A DNA stretch of 47,430 nucleotides from Candidatus Gastranaerophilales bacterium (GTDB lineage: Bacteria; Cyanobacteriota; Vampirovibrionia; Gastranaerophilales; Gastranaerophilaceae), in NCBI GenBank assembly GCA_947625495.1, contig CANQOQ010000013.1, positions 1 to 47,430 of the forward strand. Reading direction: 5' to 3'. This document shows, in pieces, positions 15,856-30,158 of the stretch. A model generated the notes under the pieces. That model had not been told where the DNA came from. It ran no database searches and saw only the letters and a list, made by a program, of their open reading frames with translations. The translations under genes and the position numbers were made by a program. Each line of letters starts with the position of its first letter. Within the stretch, counting starts at the first letter, position 1.

Positions 15856-17157
15856 ATGAAAATTATTGATATTATTGAAAGAAAAAAACTTGGTTTTGAA
15901 CTTAGTGAGGACGAAATAAGATTTTTTATTAACGGGATAATGGATAATACCATAGAGGATTATCAAACAAGCGCACTGTTAATGGCAATATATTTTAAAG
16001 GTATGACGCTTGATGAAACGGCTTTTCTCACAAAATATATGGTAGAATCCGGAGAAACTCTCAATTTATCGGATATTTCGAATAATATCATAGACAAACA
16101 CTCAACAGGCGGAGTAGGGGATAAAATAACATTAATTTTCCTTCCTTTAATGGCAGCAAGCGGAATGTATACGGCTAAATTATCAGGGAGAGGTCTCGGG
16201 CATACAGGTGGAACAATTGATAAACTTGAATCAATCCCCGGTTTTAGAACAGATTTATCCATAGAAGAATTTAAAGAAAAAGTCAAAAAATATAAAACTG
16301 CCATAGCTGCACAGACTCTGTCTTTAGCACCTGCCGACGGTAAATTATATGCCTTAAGAGATGTTACTTCGACCGTTGATATTATTCCATTAATAGCTTC
16401 ATCAGTAGTATCAAAGAAAATTGCTTCAGGTGCCAATCATATAATATTGGATGTAAAATACGGTTCAGGAGCTTTTATCAAAACTCCTCAAGATGCAGTT
16501 AAACTGTCTGATATTATGGTGCAAGTCGGCAAACGTCTAAACAGGAATATTTGCGCTGTTATAAGCTCCATGAATCAGCCTCTCGGAAGAGCTATAGGTA
16601 ATTCTGTAGAAATTCAGGAAGTCATTGAATTTTTAAAAGGCAATATAGAAGATGATTTAAAAGAAATTACATATACACTTTGCCACTGTGCTTTTGAAAA
16701 AGCAGGTAAATTTAAAACAAAAGAAGATTCTTTCAAATATCTTGATGACTTAATTTCAAGCGGAAAAGCTCTTGAAAAATTTAAAGAAATTATAATTTCC
16801 CAAAATGGAGACCCTGATATTATTGATGATTATTTAAAACTTCCTCAAGCCTCAATTAAATATGAAATAAAATCCGAAAAAGACGGATTTATCAAAAATA
16901 TTGACGCACTTAAAATAGCAAAAGCTTGCAAAAATTTAGGCGCAGGACGAGAAAAGAAATCGGATTCAATAGACTACAGTGCAGGGATTTATTTAACACA
17001 AAAGCAATCTGAACCGGTTAAACAAGGTGAAACTATTGCCGTTTTATACACCAATAAAAAATCGGCAATTAAAGAAGCAGAAAAACTGGTTCTCTCTGCT
17101 TATGAAATTACCGATAAACAATATAAAAAATCTTCTCTGATATATAAAATTATTTAG
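15856..17157 (+). CDS. pdp: Pyrimidine-nucleoside (thymidine) phosphorylase
   Basis: It splits thymidine/uridine with phosphate in nucleoside salvage. The 433-residue protein carries the family signature SGRGLGHTGGTIDKLES, the phosphate-binding KHSTGGVGDK, ALRDVTSTVD, GSGAF and the C-terminal domain (about 340-433) with GAGREKKSD and an ending motif AYEITD. Length equals that of Bacillus Pdp (433). RBS TAGGAG. The C-terminus converges on the next gene with an 8-base overlap. Together with mtnA and the aldolase it suggests active nucleoside-carbon salvage. Confidence 0.92.
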   Translation: MKIIDIIERKKLGFELSEDEIRFFINGIMDNTIEDYQTSALLMAIYFKGMTLDETAFLTKYMVESGETLNLSDISNNIIDKHSTGGVGDKITLIFLPLMAASGMYTAKLSGRGLGHTGGTIDKLESIPGFRTDLSIEEFKEKVKKYKTAIAAQTLSLAPADGKLYALRDVTSTVDIIPLIASSVVSKKIASGANHIILDVKYGSGAFIKTPQDAVKLSDIMVQVGKRLNRNICAVISSMNQPLGRAIGNSVEIQEVIEFLKGNIEDDLKEITYTLCHCAFEKAGKFKTKEDSFKYLDDLISSGKALEKFKEIIISQNGDPDIIDDYLKLPQASIKYEIKSEKDGFIKNIDALKIAKACKNLGAGREKKSDSIDYSAGIYLTQKQSEPVKQGETIAVLYTNKKSAIKEAEKLVLSAYEITDKQYKKSSLIYKII

Positions 17158-24457: not shown

Positions 24458-24907
24458 ATGGAACAGAATAAATTTTTAAATGAAAACCCGGAACAAGTTG
24501 TAATATTCCCTACCCCAAGGCAAATTATAATACATAGAGCAATACCAGAAAGAGCATACGGACTGTTTGACTCTGAAACAGGCAAACAAGCGGGAGATTT
24601 TAAGAAAGGTACAGACGGACAAGTTGAATTTACCAACTTAGACCCAAGTAAGCACTATGATGTCGGAGCTATTGAAGGCATGGGAGATGAAAAGCCTCAA
24701 TTTAGAATAAATTGGACCAAAAAAATGCGTGATAACACAGACACTATACTAAATAATTCCGATAACCTGCCTGTAGAATATCCTTGCAACTACTACATAA
24801 TAGATAACGGAAACAATAATGTATTTGATTTAGTAGATAATAAAGGTGATAAGGTAGGACAAGTTGCAAAATTAACACCAACGGGCGATAAACCTAAAAT
24901 AAATTAG
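24458..24907 (+). pseudogene. Host gene interrupted by the transposon (5' part)
   Basis: The ATG at 24458 follows AAAGGAC and is preferred to an in-frame ATG 15 codons upstream without RBS. The 149-residue product includes AYGLFDSETGKQAGDF...VEFTNLDPSKHYDVG, resembling a small Cna-B/prealbumin-like beta-sandwich; no signal peptide. The stop codon TAG (24905-24907) is made from two host bases and the first G of the transposon. Removing the element and one 8-bp repeat joins this frame to 30157 onwards and adds 13 codons before TAA at 30196-30198, so only a short C-terminal tail was lost and the protein may still work. Function unknown. Confidence 0.7.
24899..24906 (+). repeat. 8-bp target-site duplication, left copy (ATAAATTA)
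   Basis: Identical to 30151-30158 and directly outside the inverted repeat. An 8-bp duplication is the hallmark of IS1595-family transposition. Confidence 0.9.
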
Positions 24908-24931
24908 GTAACTATATACAATGTTACAGTA
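24907..24931 (+). repeat. Left terminal inverted repeat (25 bp)
   Basis: Matches the reverse complement of 30126-30150 at all 25 positions, then diverges on both sides. It begins GGTAACTATATAC and contains an inner dyad GTAAC (24908-24912)/GTTAC (24923-24927), a likely transposase contact. Confidence 0.95.
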
Positions 24932-24937
24932 AACACC

Positions 24938-24968
24938 GCTAAAGTAGTTTATTTATAACTATTTTAGC
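24938..24968 (+). terminator. Intrinsic terminator just inside the left transposon end
   Basis: A 12-bp stem GCTAAAGTAGTT/AACTATTTTAGC (one G-U pair), 7-nt loop, followed by TATTTTTTT. It would stop transcripts entering from the interrupted host gene. The remaining left-end spacer (24969-25087) is AT-rich with no other clear feature. Confidence 0.8.
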
Positions 24969-25101
24969 TATTTTTTTGTGTTCATATACACAATTTTAAC
25001 AACTTAATATATTCTCTCTCCGCCCCTATTTTAAATTCTAAATTTTTATATTAAAATATGGATATATTATTAAAGCAACTTATTTTTAGGGAGTGTAGAG
25101 G

Positions 25102-25194
25102 ATGTTCAAAAAGCCTGATATTATGCAAATTGTCGGGGGGGGGGTACCGCCTAAAAGATTTTCTATTAACAACTTTCGTAAAGGAGGTTGTTAA
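25102..25194 (+). CDS. 30-codon ORF containing a G10 run, overlapping the restriction-modification start
   Basis: ATG at 25102 is preceded by AGGGAG (25088-25093, spacer 8). The peptide is MFKKPDIMQIVGGG...NNFRKGGC, of no known family. Its TAA (25192-25194) shares one base with the ATG of the next gene (TAATG). With ten G the frame ends exactly there; with 11 it stops at TAA in GCCTAA about 20 nt later, and with 9 it runs 10 nt past the downstream ATG. It therefore looks like a leader ORF whose coupling to the enzyme gene depends on the G count. Whether it is translated is unproven. Confidence 0.5.
   Translation: MFKKPDIMQIVGGGVPPKRFSINNFRKGGC
25135..25144 (+). repeat. Poly-G tract (10 G)
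   Basis: A run of ten G in DNA of about 30% GC. Such tracts change length by slipped-strand mispairing and are classic phase-variation sites. It lies in the 30-codon ORF 49 nt before the restriction-modification start. Confidence 0.9.
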
Positions 25195-27524
25195 TGGATT
25201 ATAAGAGTGAAGACATTGTAAGAGATGAAGCCAGAGAAATATTAGGCTTAAAAAATTCAGAGGATGTTCTTTCTAATGTAGGTCAATTAACAACTTTTAA
25301 CAGATTAGGCTTTGATAAAACAAAAGACAGACCCGATGGTTGGTATTTGCCAAATAATGTAAATGAAGTTGCAATAATTTTGGAGACAAAAAATTCCGAA
25401 GAAAGTGTTTATGAAGAAAAATGGATAAACGAGTTAAAGAAAAACATAAAAATTACAAATACAAAATATAAAAGAGTTATTGGAATTTTATATAATGGGT
25501 ACGATGTACTTGTTTTTAAGAATAACGAACTAGCCATTACAAGTGATAAATTATTTAATAAATCTTACTATTTAAAACTTTATAACATAAATACAGTTGA
25601 CAAAAATTTAATATATAATTTAACAAAAAAAATAAATGACAACTTGCATTATAATTTTGGAATTGATAATTTGAATCATAGAATGGTGTTTACGGCTTGT
25701 GCATTGGTCGCAAAAAGATATGGGGCTGTTTTAGTTAAGGAAATGAATTGGAATACACTACATAGCTCGATACTTTCAACACTTGAAAATTCTTACGAAG
25801 AGGCTAAAATTAAAAATACCAAATTAGATATATTATCGGATGAATATAAAACAATAAGATTTAATTATACAGAAAATCAGACTGCAATTAACGATTTTAT
25901 AGAATGTGTTACTAAAATTTCCGACAACATAAATTCTGATTATTGGAACGGGGAAGACGTAATGGGTATTTTCTTTAATGAATTTACTCGTTATAAAGGT
26001 AAATCAGAACAAGGTCAAGTATTTACTCCTGATCATATTACTTCTTTTATGTATCGTATTACCGGAACATCTTATAAAGACAAGGTTCTAGATGCTTGTT
26101 GTGGTAGTGGTGCGTTTCTAACAAAAGCCATGAGTAACATGATACAGGAAGTAGGTGGTGTTAATAACGAAACAGAGGTTCAAAAAATTAAAGAAGAACA
26201 CTTATATGGTGTTGAATTCAACAAAAGTATATTTGCATTGGCTTGTGCTAATATGCTCATTCATAAAGATGGAAAAACAAATATAATTCAAGAAGATTCC
26301 AAAGGGAAAAAGGTCTCAAATTGGATTAAATCAAACAATATAACGAAAGTATTAATGAATCCGCCTTATGAAAAGAAATGCGGTTGTTTAAAGATTGTTG
26401 AAAATGTATTAGAAAATGTAGATAATGGTGCGATATGTGCGTTTATTTTACCTGATACAAAACTAAAGGTTAATAAGAATATCGTTATAAAATGGCTAAC
26501 AAAACATACACTGCAAAAAATAATAAAACTTCCGGATGTATTTTCTGGTATGGCTAATGTTAGGACATCAATCTTTATTTTTAAAGCACATGAACCACAA
26601 ATTATACAAACTGTTGAGAATAATCAACGAGTTCTAAAATCGAAGAAAGATATTTTTTCTTGTTGGATACAAGATGATGGTTTAGAAACCGTAAAAAATC
26701 AAGGACGTCATGATGTTAACAATGTATGGAAAGCAAAAGAAGACTACTGGGTGGATGTCATTTATAAGCAATCAGGAGATGAAACAATACAATGGTTGAA
26801 TCCATTAGAACATCTAAGCTATCAAATATCTAAACCTGATTTTATAATATCAAACAAAGATATAAACAAAGTGTCATTAAATTATATACTTTTCAAGAAA
26901 AATATAAATGAAGACGAATTTGATAAAATCGTTAAGAATTATTATTTATATGGCGAAGATAATGTGCTATTAACTGATAAATTATTGACTTACTTAGGAA
27001 ATAACAAGAAAATAGGCTACATAGATACAACCGGTTGGAAACGATTTAAACTTGATATTCCTAATTTTTCAATTGGAACCGGAGCCTATATTAATAAACA
27101 AGTCTTTAAAGAGGGAAATACCCCAAGAATAACAGTAAAAGGGAAAAACAACGGTATTTTTGCCAAATATACAGATGTTGAAAACAGAAATTACAGAACT
27201 TTTGAAAATTTTATCTCTTATTCTTTTCTTGGAACCAGTTTTTATCATCCATATAAAGCAAGTTTGGATATGAAAGTCCATGCTATACAAACCTTAAAAT
27301 ACAAATTAAATCATTATAGTGGTTTGTTTCTAGTTTTAGTTTTATTAAAAACTTTTGCTCAAGATTTTGATGATCAAACATCTAGCACTGATTTAAAAGA
27401 ATCAGAAATATATTTACCTGCAAAGACTATAAATTTTGACGATGATATATATGAACCCGATTGGGCTAAAATGGAAAATTATGTTAAACCTATATATGAT
27501 GAAATAGAACAAGCATTTTTATAG
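25194..27524 (+). CDS. Single-chain restriction-modification enzyme (type IIG-like N6-adenine methylase)
   Basis: The ATG at 25194 follows AAAGGAGG; a TTG two codons earlier is less likely. The 776-residue protein has an N-terminal nuclease-like domain with P47-D48 and E64-T-K66 in IILETKNS (a PD-(D/E)XK pattern), a helical linker, and an N6-adenine methylase with GQVFTP (274-279), motif I DACCGSGAF (300-308) and catalytic NPPY (389-392). The C-terminal part (about 590-740) resembles a specificity domain (GWKRFKLD, KEGNTPRITV). It would both methylate and cut its site without separate subunits. No separate HsdR or HsdS is present in the element. Nuclease activity is inferred. Confidence 0.8.
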   Translation: MDYKSEDIVRDEAREILGLKNSEDVLSNVGQLTTFNRLGFDKTKDRPDGWYLPNNVNEVAIILETKNSEESVYEEKWINELKKNIKITNTKYKRVIGILYNGYDVLVFKNNELAITSDKLFNKSYYLKLYNINTVDKNLIYNLTKKINDNLHYNFGIDNLNHRMVFTACALVAKRYGAVLVKEMNWNTLHSSILSTLENSYEEAKIKNTKLDILSDEYKTIRFNYTENQTAINDFIECVTKISDNINSDYWNGEDVMGIFFNEFTRYKGKSEQGQVFTPDHITSFMYRITGTSYKDKVLDACCGSGAFLTKAMSNMIQEVGGVNNETEVQKIKEEHLYGVEFNKSIFALACANMLIHKDGKTNIIQEDSKGKKVSNWIKSNNITKVLMNPPYEKKCGCLKIVENVLENVDNGAICAFILPDTKLKVNKNIVIKWLTKHTLQKIIKLPDVFSGMANVRTSIFIFKAHEPQIIQTVENNQRVLKSKKDIFSCWIQDDGLETVKNQGRHDVNNVWKAKEDYWVDVIYKQSGDETIQWLNPLEHLSYQISKPDFIISNKDINKVSLNYILFKKNINEDEFDKIVKNYYLYGEDNVLLTDKLLTYLGNNKKIGYIDTTGWKRFKLDIPNFSIGTGAYINKQVFKEGNTPRITVKGKNNGIFAKYTDVENRNYRTFENFISYSFLGTSFYHPYKASLDMKVHAIQTLKYKLNHYSGLFLVLVLLKTFAQDFDDQTSSTDLKESEIYLPAKTINFDDDIYEPDWAKMENYVKPIYDEIEQAFL

Positions 27525-27591
27525 AATAGTTATTTATTGTTACCATGTTTTTGCTTTTATATGATTTAACATAAAGCACATTAACCTTTAG

Positions 27592-27597
27592 TATAAT
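27592..27597 (+). promoter_or_regulatory. -10 element for the transposase transcript
   Basis: TATAAT in the spacer after the restriction-modification gene; the nearest -35-like TTAACA (27566-27571) is 20 nt away, so the promoter would be weak. Confidence 0.4.
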
Positions 27598-27636
27598 AAA
27601 TTAGATGCACCAATTGTTAAGTTTTGCTGCGAAAAT

Positions 27637-27708
27637 ATGGTTATAGCTCAAGCGGGACTTCATGTACGACCATGTTTGACACAACAAACCGTTATACTGA
27701 AGGTATGA
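27637..27708 (+). CDS. Possible 23-codon upstream ORF overlapping the transposase start
   Basis: ATG at 27637 opens a short ORF ending TGA at 27706-27708, giving an ATGA overlap with the chosen transposase ATG (27705). The peptide has no recognisable feature. The arrangement could couple or limit transposase translation, but there is no good RBS for either start. Confidence 0.25.
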   Translation: MVIAQAGLHVRPCLTQQTVILKV

Positions 27709-28649
27709 GAAACGATAAATTACTTAAAACCTTTAATAAATTTAGTTCTTTATACGATTTGCATAAAGCATTCCCTACTGAAAAATCTTGCATTAAGTTT
27801 TTAGAAATAATCAGATGGAATGGTAATATAATAAGTCCTTTTGATAAAAATTCTAAAGTATATAAATGTAAGAATAACAGATATTACTGTAAAAATACAA
27901 ATAAATACTTTAATGTAAGGACTAAAACCTTATTTGAATCATCTAACATAGAATTAAGAAAATGGTTTATGTCTATTTATCTTATAACCTCTCATAAAAA
28001 AGGTATATCATCTCTGCAATTATCTAAAGATTTACATGTTACACAAAAAACAGCTTGGTTTATGCTTCAAAGAATTAGAAAATGTTTTGAAGTTGAAAAT
28101 AATAATATCCTTAATAACCATGTAGAAGTAGATGAAACATATATAGGCGGTAAAAATAAAAACAGACATAAAAATAAAAAAGTTGAAAACTCTCAAGGAA
28201 GAAGTACAAAAGATAAAACACCAGTTCTTGGTATGATAGAAAGAAACGGAAAAGTAAATGCTAAAGTAATTGATAATGTAAAATCAGATACCTTAACAAG
28301 AGAAATAATAAAATGTGTAAGAGATTCAGCTAATCTATATACAGATGAATTTTTAGGATACAACGGTATTTCTCAATTCTATATACATGCAATAGTAAGA
28401 CATAAATTAAGCCAATATGTAGACGGAAATGCTTTTACAAATAATATAGAAGGATTTTGGAGTATAGTAAAAAGAGGATTGCTTGGTATTTATCATTTTA
28501 CAAGTAAAAAACACTTACAAAAATACTTAGATGAATTTGTATTCAGATTTAATACAAGAGAATACACAGAGACAGACAGATTTACAAAACTTCTAACCAA
28601 CATGACAGTAAGAACAAGGTACAGAGATTTAGTGACTGCTGCTGCATAA
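27705..28649 (+). CDS. IS1595-family transposase
   Basis: The protein (314 aa from this start) has a degenerate N-terminal zinc-ribbon region (IIRWNGNIISPFDKN...YKCKNNRYYCKNTNKYF, first CxxC replaced), a helix-turn-helix-like segment (SLQLSKDLHVTQKTAWFML) and the DDE core: VEVDETYIGG (Asp), LYTDEFLGY (Asp) and NNIEGFWSIVKRG (Asn/Glu), ending FRFNTRE. The start is uncertain: in-frame ATG at 27672 or TTG at 27624 would extend it, and none has a strong RBS. Together with matching ends it should mobilise the whole element. Confidence 0.9.
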   Translation: MRNDKLLKTFNKFSSLYDLHKAFPTEKSCIKFLEIIRWNGNIISPFDKNSKVYKCKNNRYYCKNTNKYFNVRTKTLFESSNIELRKWFMSIYLITSHKKGISSLQLSKDLHVTQKTAWFMLQRIRKCFEVENNNILNNHVEVDETYIGGKNKNRHKNKKVENSQGRSTKDKTPVLGMIERNGKVNAKVIDNVKSDTLTREIIKCVRDSANLYTDEFLGYNGISQFYIHAIVRHKLSQYVDGNAFTNNIEGFWSIVKRGLLGIYHFTSKKHLQKYLDEFVFRFNTREYTETDRFTKLLTNMTVRTRYRDLVTAAA

Positions 28650-28781
28650 AAATCCTTATATTTTTTAATTAAAATAGAAAAAACAAATTTTAATAAATTT
28701 CATTAAATAAACTTTTTAATATATTGGATATTTTATAAATAACATTTATAATTATATAAATAGTTAAATAGGTTGTTCAAA

Positions 28782-29276
28782 ATGGATAATGAAAGAATAT
28801 TATATATAATTAATTCTCCTAAAATAATTACCAAACAACCTAAAAAGAAAACATCATTAATTAATGGTTCATATAGAAATGACTTTGAAGTAGCACTAAT
28901 TGCAGATAAAAATGTAAAATTAAATGTTCATTTTAGAAAGAATGAAAAATTCTCTGAAAATTTTTCTATAATTTTAGAATATAACAATCAAGAATTGCAG
29001 AAAAGAATAATTTTGCTAAGATATAATGGAGCACATGGGTATCATAAAAATAAAATTATAGATGATAATGAATTTGAATCATTTCATATACATCGTGCAA
29101 CAAATGAAGCTATTAAACAAGGGTATAATCCCGAATGCTGGGCGTATGCAACAAAGGACTATACAACATTTGAAGAAGCAGCAACCAAATTTTGGCAGGA
29201 TATAAAAATACAAGATGATATTGATAAATTTTTTAAAGATTATAAAGCAGTTCAATTATTTCTATTTAATAATTAG
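28782..29276 (+). CDS. Small unknown protein, partner of the DUF1828-like gene
   Basis: I take the ATG at 28782; the in-frame TTG three codons earlier is less likely. The 164-residue protein has a beta-rich N-terminal part (VALIADKNVKLNVHFRKN, IILEYNNQELQKRIILLRYNG) and a helical C-terminal part with HIHRATNEAIKQG and TTFEEAATKFW. It resembles small proteins of unknown function (possibly the DUF6978 group) next to DUF1828 genes; this is from memory and weak. The next gene follows after 8 nt. A toxin-antitoxin or defence pair is possible but unproven. Confidence 0.55.
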   Translation: MDNERILYIINSPKIITKQPKKKTSLINGSYRNDFEVALIADKNVKLNVHFRKNEKFSENFSIILEYNNQELQKRIILLRYNGAHGYHKNKIIDDNEFESFHIHRATNEAIKQGYNPECWAYATKDYTTFEEAATKFWQDIKIQDDIDKFFKDYKAVQLFLFNN

Positions 29277-29284
29277 GAGTTAGA

Positions 29285-30043
29285 ATGATTGCAGTAGAAG
29301 AAATAAAAAAGTATATAAATATAGATATTAAAATAAAAGAAAAAAGACCCCACATATATCAAATATTTGCTCCATTTTTTCATGAAGATGGAGATATGGT
29401 TGAAATGTTTTTAGAACAAACAATAAATGGTACATTAAGATTTTGTGACTTTGGATTAACAGCAATGAAATTGTCATATTATCTTGAAAATTTAAATAAT
29501 ACAAATAAAAAGGTTTATAATGATATTTTAAAAGAAAATTCTTTAGATGAAGAAGATGGAAATATATTTTTAGAAACAAATTTAACTAATTTAAATACTA
29601 ATTTTCTTCATTTTGCAGAAACATTGAGTAAAATATCGAGTTTAAAATATTTTGATTCGCACAGACAAAAAAACATATTTTATGATGTTTTATCAGATAT
29701 GATTAAAGAAACATTCCAAAATACAAATGTTAAAAAAGATTATGTTCCTATAAAAGAATATCCTGAAAATAAGGTTGACTATGCTTTTAAGGGTAAAGGG
29801 AGAGATTTATATTTATTTGGGGTAAAAGATAATGTTAAAGCATTACAAGTTGTTACTTCATGTTTAGAATTTAAACAAATGGGGTCTAAACATCAAAGTA
29901 TTGTCGTTTATGACGACTTTTCAAATCTAAATTTAAGTAAAGGTACAGTGTCAAAATTATTGAGGAATACTGATAAGCAATTTATGGATTTAAATCAATT
30001 TAGAGAAGAGGGACAAAATTATATTAGCGAAATGATTGCTTAA
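29285..30043 (+). CDS. DUF1828-like protein
   Basis: RBS TTAGGAG precedes the ATG. The 252-residue protein begins with a DUF1828-like module (about 20-75): FAPFFHEDGDMVEMFLEQ...TLRFCDFGLTAMKLSYYLE, in which a nucleic-acid or ligand-binding role has been guessed. The C-terminal half (about 140-245; VDYAFKGKGRDLYLFGVKDN, QSIVVYDDFSNLN) resembles the DUF1829-type partner domain. Genes of this kind occur on mobile elements and phages. Last cargo gene, 82 nt before the right inverted repeat. Function unknown. Confidence 0.6.
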   Translation: MIAVEEIKKYINIDIKIKEKRPHIYQIFAPFFHEDGDMVEMFLEQTINGTLRFCDFGLTAMKLSYYLENLNNTNKKVYNDILKENSLDEEDGNIFLETNLTNLNTNFLHFAETLSKISSLKYFDSHRQKNIFYDVLSDMIKETFQNTNVKKDYVPIKEYPENKVDYAFKGKGRDLYLFGVKDNVKALQVVTSCLEFKQMGSKHQSIVVYDDFSNLNLSKGTVSKLLRNTDKQFMDLNQFREEGQNYISEMIA

Positions 30044-30125
30044 AATTCTGTTTAGGTATAAACCATTTTGGTAAAATATTTAGTAATAAGTCTACTATTA
30101 TTTTGTATTTTTTTAATTTTTTATA

Positions 30126-30150
30126 TACTGTAACATTGTATATAGTTACC
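30126..30150 (-). repeat. Right terminal inverted repeat (25 bp)
   Basis: Perfect reverse complement of 24907-24931; ends ...GTATATAGTTACC on the plus strand. Confidence 0.95.
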
Positions 30151-30158
30151 ATAAATTA
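30151..30158 (+). repeat. 8-bp target-site duplication, right copy (ATAAATTA)
   Basis: Identical to 24899-24906 and directly adjacent to the right inverted repeat. Confidence 0.9.

Follow-up and report, generated by a model that had tools for sequence, protein, structure and literature searches.

The stretch of DNA considered here, referred to as the window, is contig C13 (47,430 bp) of a 1.88 Mb genome of 51 contigs assigned to Candidatus Gastranaerophilales. This group comprises non-photosynthetic gut relatives of cyanobacteria. The system under study is a short leader open reading frame (ORF) with a run of ten G (G10), located directly before a gene for a type IIG-like restriction-methylation enzyme. 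The evidence described below makes it fairly probable that this G-tract leader is a phase-variable translational switch for the enzyme. The leader occupies 25102-25194 on the plus strand, comprises 30 codons at ten G, and translates as MFKKPDIMQIVGGGVPPKRFSINNFRKGGC, followed by a stop codon. It is preceded by its own Shine–Dalgarno sequence (SD), AGGGAG (25088-25093, plus strand), whose six bases are identical in four of six homologues, and further upstream by a candidate promoter, TTTAAA-16-TAAAAT (25030-25057, plus strand), which is a consensus match only and lies within the most conserved stretch 5' of the leader. The TAA of the leader (25192-25194) shares its final A with the ATG of the enzyme (25194-25196). 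An earlier note on this DNA had described the G10 run in AT-rich DNA, the 30-codon ORF with its own ribosome-binding site (RBS) AGGGAG, and the overlap of the leader stop with the enzyme start (TAATG); all of these coordinates proved exact.

The G tract (25135-25144, plus strand) is the presumed phase-variable element. It is the sole run of six or more G or C in the window, whose GC content is 32.8%. The genome as a whole contains 40 runs of eight or more G (24 G9, 14 G10, and 2 G8), compared with approximately 1.6 expected from base composition by a hand estimate. Because of this excess, and because a leader with such a tract recurs before other genes, the G10 run exceeds what chance would produce. 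The locus thus corresponds to a simple-sequence-repeat locus, in which a longer-than-chance repeat is placed where slips alter a gene. The use of poly-G as a promoter spacer was rejected at this locus, since the conserved promoter-like stretch lies about 80 bp upstream of the tract.

The enzyme (25194-27524, plus strand; 776 aa) contains an N6 methylase domain at residues 259-395 (Pfam N6_Mtase, 1.8e-21) and a C-terminal specificity domain at residues 613-764 (PADLOC Specificity_II, 5.7e-12), and it also matches the PADLOC model REase_MTase_IIG (8.9e-35). The methylase and specificity regions are model matches, whereas the N-terminal nuclease motif, PD..LETK, is a by-eye reading only. The relatives of the enzyme in the PDB are type I methylase subunits. 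An orthologue in genome G075 is 55% identical and is followed by a separate specificity-like gene. It begins at the same residue, which supports the enzyme start at 25194. Since this orthologue has neither leader nor tract, the leader is most likely a later addition to this gene, made in the lineage of the window.

Reading frames and the predicted hairpin over the enzyme start

The length of the tract determines where translation of the leader ends. With nine G, the stop ends at 25204, 10 nt beyond the enzyme start, and with eleven G it ends at 25154, 40 nt ahead of it, as the earlier note had calculated. The states assigned to these frames can be refined. The shut frame corresponds to 3n+2 (G8 or G11), in which the leader ends at a TAA at 25152-25154 (plus strand), a stop found at the same place in all six leaders (GCCTAA, GCCTAG, or GACTAA). 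Nine G is probably not an off state, because in this frame the ribosome still crosses the hairpin over the enzyme start, stopping 8 nt past that start. The possibility that one of the frames fuses the leader to the enzyme was rejected, since the enzyme frame hits the conserved TAA or TAG right after the tract in the copies read.

The predicted hairpin (25162-25198, plus strand) has 16 bp, formed by pairing of 25162-25177 with 25183-25198; the stem arms are UCUAUUAACAACUUUC and GGAGGUUGUUAAUGGA, and the loop is GUAAA. It buries both the SD of the enzyme, AAAGGAGG (25180-25187, plus strand), whose GGAGG core is paired, and the AUG, which lies wholly within the stem with a predicted unpaired probability of 0.00. 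The predicted energy is -21.5 kcal/mol, compared with a mean of -10.2 for dinucleotide shuffles (z -4.4), and none of 500 shuffles was as low. Among 62 SD-bearing gene starts from the window and other stretches of the same genome, this hairpin is the most stable. Its interpretation as a transcription terminator was rejected: no T run follows it, and the plus-strand terminator scan lists only a terminator-like hairpin at 24938-24968, which separates the transposon end from the candidate promoter of the leader. When a ribosome footprint is placed at the leader stop in the model, predicted pairing of the SD core is 0.00 at G10 and about 0.12 at G9 or G12, versus 1.00 at G8 or G11. By prediction, the downstream ribosome-binding site is occluded until the leader is translated, as is characteristic of reinitiation. 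The stop and start also lie within a few nucleotides of each other, as in reinitiation coupling, with TAATG in C13 and in the leader of genome G009 and ATGA in the paralogue on contig C23.

In the proposed mechanism, transcription would begin upstream of 25102 and ribosomes would load on the leader, while the strong SD and start codon of the enzyme would be locked in the hairpin. With a tract of 3n+1 (ten G), a ribosome terminating at the stop that overlaps the enzyme start would melt the hairpin and could reinitiate, giving an on state. With 3n (nine or twelve G), the ribosome would cross the hairpin and stop shortly past the start, giving an on or partly on state. With 3n+2 (eight or eleven G), it would meet the conserved stop 42 nt before the start, the hairpin would stay closed, and the enzyme would be off. 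Slips in the G tract during replication would shift cells between these states. Restriction and methylation would therefore be gained or lost together, with the enzyme sequence left intact. Two of the three lengths would be open, so the population would be biased towards on.

A different explanation regards leader and tract as a passive relic: the strong SD of the enzyme would drive constitutive translation by itself, and the length of the tract would be neutral. The SD is indeed near-perfect and well spaced. However, the predicted fold places both SD and AUG entirely in paired positions, the cassette is kept before several genes with its stop placement intact, and a G10 run in AT-rich DNA would be expected to decay without selection. 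This explanation is considered unlikely. The three to four consecutive GGG codons of the leader, in an AT-rich genome, also recall leader-peptide attenuation, in which stalling at these glycine codons would sense glycine-tRNA supply or translation stress, and the tract would not chiefly be a switch; bacterial regulatory leader ORFs are known (PMC12121999). Because a stalled ribosome would remain well short of the second SD, stalling alone could not open the hairpin, and the stop in the third frame would be left unexplained. Attenuation is therefore highly improbable.

Homologous leaders and tract-length variation

Homologues of the leader were sought by DNA and profile searches in 41 genomes of the genus, which are assemblies, one per species. 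In total, six leaders were obtained: those of C13 and C23 in the same genome, and one each in G028, G039, G009, and G025. The five leaders homologous to that of C13 all carry G10 or G11. The upstream part is conserved among the leaders (promoter-like stretch, SD, and first codons), and the genes downstream differ. The C23 and G028 leaders precede a protein with the methylase motifs DPCAGVGN and NPPY (by eye; no Pfam match), the G009 leader precedes a 776-aa N6 methylase (Pfam, 2.2e-27), and the G039 leader precedes a glycerophosphodiesterase-like protein (by eye; no Pfam match), followed by genes resembling a sugar-nucleotide operon. Weak profile matches in G007, G018, G021, G037, and G038 were left unused (E 4.6e-4 or worse).

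The frame logic is common to all of these leaders. Over the three frames, the stop offsets relative to the downstream start are -42/-2/+8 in C13, -33/+1/+5 in C23, G028, and G039, -42/-2/+5 in G009, and -21/+5/+10 in G025. All six leaders thus have one frame that ends directly behind the tract, 21-42 nt short of the start, and two whose stops fall between -2 and +10. In shuffled tails, two frames stop so close with a probability of 0.013 in C13 and of 0.076-0.23 in the other leaders (highest for G025); since the tails represent about three independent groups, the joint probability is small, though not extremely so.

The tails of the leaders are mainly of two types. C13 and G009, whose downstream enzymes differ, have one tail and hairpin in common; in the stem, one pair is altered on both sides (C-G to A-U) and another on one side only. 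C23, G028, and G039 have another, with a different hairpin in which codons 4-6 of the gene (AGC CTC) provide the pairing partner of the SD; G039 keeps this pairing and the first codons, and the remainder of its gene is unrelated. The SD is thus predicted to be buried by two unrelated hairpins, one in each main tail type. The footprint model predicts the same pattern for C23, G039, and G009 as for C13, and for G028 a shut-frame SD core that is 0.63-0.67 paired, i.e., partly open even when shut.

These observations also bear on the possibility that the tract, which lies within a probable 5' leader of the mRNA, is the target of a C-rich small RNA or acts via RNA structure. Its effect would then be graded by length and not set by frame, as in the experimentally demonstrated graded control of tlpB through a leader poly-G by the small RNA RepG (PMC8295292). 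Such a mechanism leaves unexplained the conserved ORF, its stop at the enzyme start, the conserved stop of the shut frame, and the buried SD, all of which recur in homologues whose tails differ. It is rated as improbable, slightly more so than the passive relic.

Variation in tract length is seen directly between near-identical copies. The C23 locus has G10 and the G028 locus G11, with flanks that are 98% and 95% identical and with the same insertion and the same target duplication. Of seven tract pairs common to this genome and G028, three differ in length. Two open frames and one shut frame are probable in view of the hairpin, the frames of the homologous leaders, the second hairpin, the G10/G11 loci, and the 40 genomic tracts. 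The proposal of the earlier note that the leader is a phase-variable coupled switch has therefore gained in anatomy, through the SD/AUG hairpin, the five homologous leaders, the second hairpin, and the G10/G11 difference, and the effect on the level of the enzyme is inferred. The evidence supports the hairpin as the mechanism that was missing from that proposal, and the transposon as its carrier.

Several points weigh against a switch of this kind. A strong SD with a hairpin is no proof of dependence on the leader. The native tracts are in an open frame in C13, C23, G009, and G025 and in the shut frame in G028 (G11) and G039 (G10), and four open frames out of six is no different from chance. 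In G025, neither a second SD nor a hairpin is clear, and the contig ends within the gene. An internal frameshift interrupts the methyltransferase gene of C23, which continues in another frame after 291 aa (L063 6608-7483, minus strand), so not all copies are functional; its counterpart in G028 is unbroken (806 aa; L070 404-2824, minus strand). Covariation in the hairpins is too thin to count, with two and three sequences and shuffles that reach the observed value. Finally, assemblies of one genome per species leave variation within populations unseen.

Poly-G tracts occur at several kinds of site in this genome, including coding sequences (some of them acyl- or glycosyltransferase-like by eye), promoter spacers (e.g., TTGACA-G9-TATATT), and two leaders. 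In the spacer class, poly-G lies between TTGACA or TTGCAA and TATAAT-like boxes before several genes (e.g., L049 minus 2701, L052 minus 3202, and L065 plus 2845), and these tracts are likely to form a second class of phase-variable loci. In two related genes (L054 minus 4863 and 5849), poly-G lies eight bases from the 3' end; slips there would therefore affect no more than the C-terminus or extend in the direction of the following gene. Across the 41 genomes, the number of runs of G8 or longer ranges from 0 to 121 and appears split, with many genomes having 0-5 tracts and others 20-121. Loss of MutL was rejected as a general cause of many tracts because MutL is present in this genome and in 37 of the 41; G017, with 121 tracts, is without a MutL match.

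The pattern GGGGGGGGN{0,6}GCCTARA in other genera was rejected as the same cassette: its matches are mostly 5' ends of prepilin-like genes, and a reversed-pattern control matches about as many genomes. The tail CGTAAAGGAGGTTGTTAATG occurs at chance level beyond G000 and G009, and no match was found in the viral contigs searched. In other genera of the family (L081-L100: G107, G115, G177, G238, G313, and G062), prepilin-like genes (FTLAEVLI) contain poly-G followed by CAGCCTAAA at the 5' end of their coding sequence, where CTCC or CCTC often stands directly after the tract and could pair with the gene's own SD.

The transposon carrying the leader

Leader and enzyme lie within an element of 5.2 kb (24907-30150) with perfect 25-bp terminal inverted repeats (TIRs) and 8-bp target duplications ATAAATTA. 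The left target duplication, ATAAATTA, is at 24899-24906 and is read directly, with its right copy at 30151-30158. The left TIR, GGTAACTATATACAATGTTACAGTA, occupies 24907-24931 on the plus strand and is 100% complementary to the right TIR at 30126-30150 on the minus strand, after which the second target duplication follows. Downstream of the enzyme are an IS1595-family transposase (27624-28649, plus strand; Pfam DDE_Tnp_IS1595, 1e-42; NCBIfam transpos_IS1595, 1.3e-60), for which no close-fitting repeats of its own were found, and two cargo genes. One cargo gene (28773-29276, plus strand; 167 aa) has no family match, and a 167-aa gene stands at the same place by a matching transposon end in G024. 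The other (29285-30043, plus strand; 252 aa) matches DUF1828 (Pfam, 1.8e-15) and has the same arrangement in G024.

The 25-bp end occurs in 18 copies in 9 of the 41 genomes of the genus, and in none with a reversed-pattern control. The C23 leader is located in a second such element, with TIRs at C23:12056-12080 and 16698-16722, the duplication TAAAATTT, and no transposase (L063 3049-7731). Both elements carry methyltransferase genes behind the poly-G leader, which in each lies at most about 200 bp from one transposon end. In G009 and G039, no such ends were found within the stretches read. In G031:C3 (L193 444-5511), the 25-bp end is followed by an apparent type III restriction-modification pair, by eye.

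IS1595-family elements make an 8-bp target duplication. Assignment to this family agrees with the transposase and with the terminal inverted repeats and 8-bp duplications found here (window ATAAATTA, C23 TAAAATTT). IS1595-family transposons with passenger genes are described by Siguier 2009, as cited in PMC3942029. The window element resembles the family in its IS1595 transposase, its inverted repeats starting with GG, and its 8-bp duplication. Unlike those passenger elements, it carries a restriction enzyme behind a presumed phase-variable leader, and the C23 copy is without a transposase.

It is conceivable, somewhat short of probable, that the promoter, the poly-G leader, and the RBS hairpin with its overlapping start form a portable cassette. 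As the constant left terminus of a mobile element, this cassette would impose phase-variable translation on whichever gene follows it. Methyltransferase genes of at least three kinds and one gene of a sugar operon stand behind it, and it would represent a reinitiation switch that is phase-variable and works through an RBS hairpin.

Comparison with known systems

A literature search found no report of phase variation in Melainabacteria or Gastranaerophilales, and a broader search found none by title. The 20-121 poly-G tracts in many genomes of the genus suggest that phase-variable loci are numerous in these uncultured relatives of cyanobacteria from the gut. Known poly-G switches mostly act by disrupting a protein or a promoter, whereas here both would stay intact and a separable leader would switch translation. 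In addition, the transposon delivers a defence enzyme together with its putative switch.

In Campylobacter jejuni, the phase-variable type IIG enzyme Cj0031 carries its G9 tract within the gene itself, so that slippage yields a truncated protein (PMC4889913), in agreement with what the earlier note had said of poly-G in Campylobacter enzymes of this type. The present case would share with it the poly-G control of a single-chain restriction-methylation enzyme whose two activities switch together, but the enzyme reading frame is never broken here. In cj0045/cj0044 of the same species, the full-length stop of a poly-G ORF overlaps the next start; coupling has been proposed, and an effect on cj0044 is only suspected (PMC8355987). 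In contrast to the leader, cj0045 is a full gene with a tract at its 3' end, and the review in PMC8355987 mentions neither a portable leader cassette nor an RBS hairpin.

RepG and tlpB of Helicobacter pylori (PMC8295292) provide a likeness in the variable poly-G in an mRNA leader that controls a downstream gene. That system works by small-RNA pairing, in a graded manner and without a leader ORF, and is the main mechanistic rival. In lex2A-lex2B of Haemophilus influenzae, a repeat-bearing upstream ORF is said to control a downstream glycosyltransferase gene. Its repeat is the tetranucleotide GCAA, with on and off counts, whereas here it is poly-G.

The closest known case is the phase-variable pil1 leader of Streptococcus gallolyticus. 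In pil1 (and pil3), the leader peptide bears a repeat, and mutants show that the pil1 leader controls a terminator (PMC3894217). One frame of pil1 ends 39-49 bp before the hairpin, giving low expression; translation in either of the remaining frames ends at the hairpin or within it, and the ribosome melts the structure (PMC3894217). The likeness lies in a slippery repeat within a short leader ORF and in the logic of two open frames and one shut, with the frame setting the distance to the hairpin in both systems. However, the repeat of pil1 is GCAGA and its hairpin is an intrinsic transcription terminator, while the window has poly-G and a hairpin without a T run. The hairpin here instead encloses the SD and AUG of the downstream gene, which begins at the last base of the leader stop codon, and the whole arrangement is borne on a transposon.
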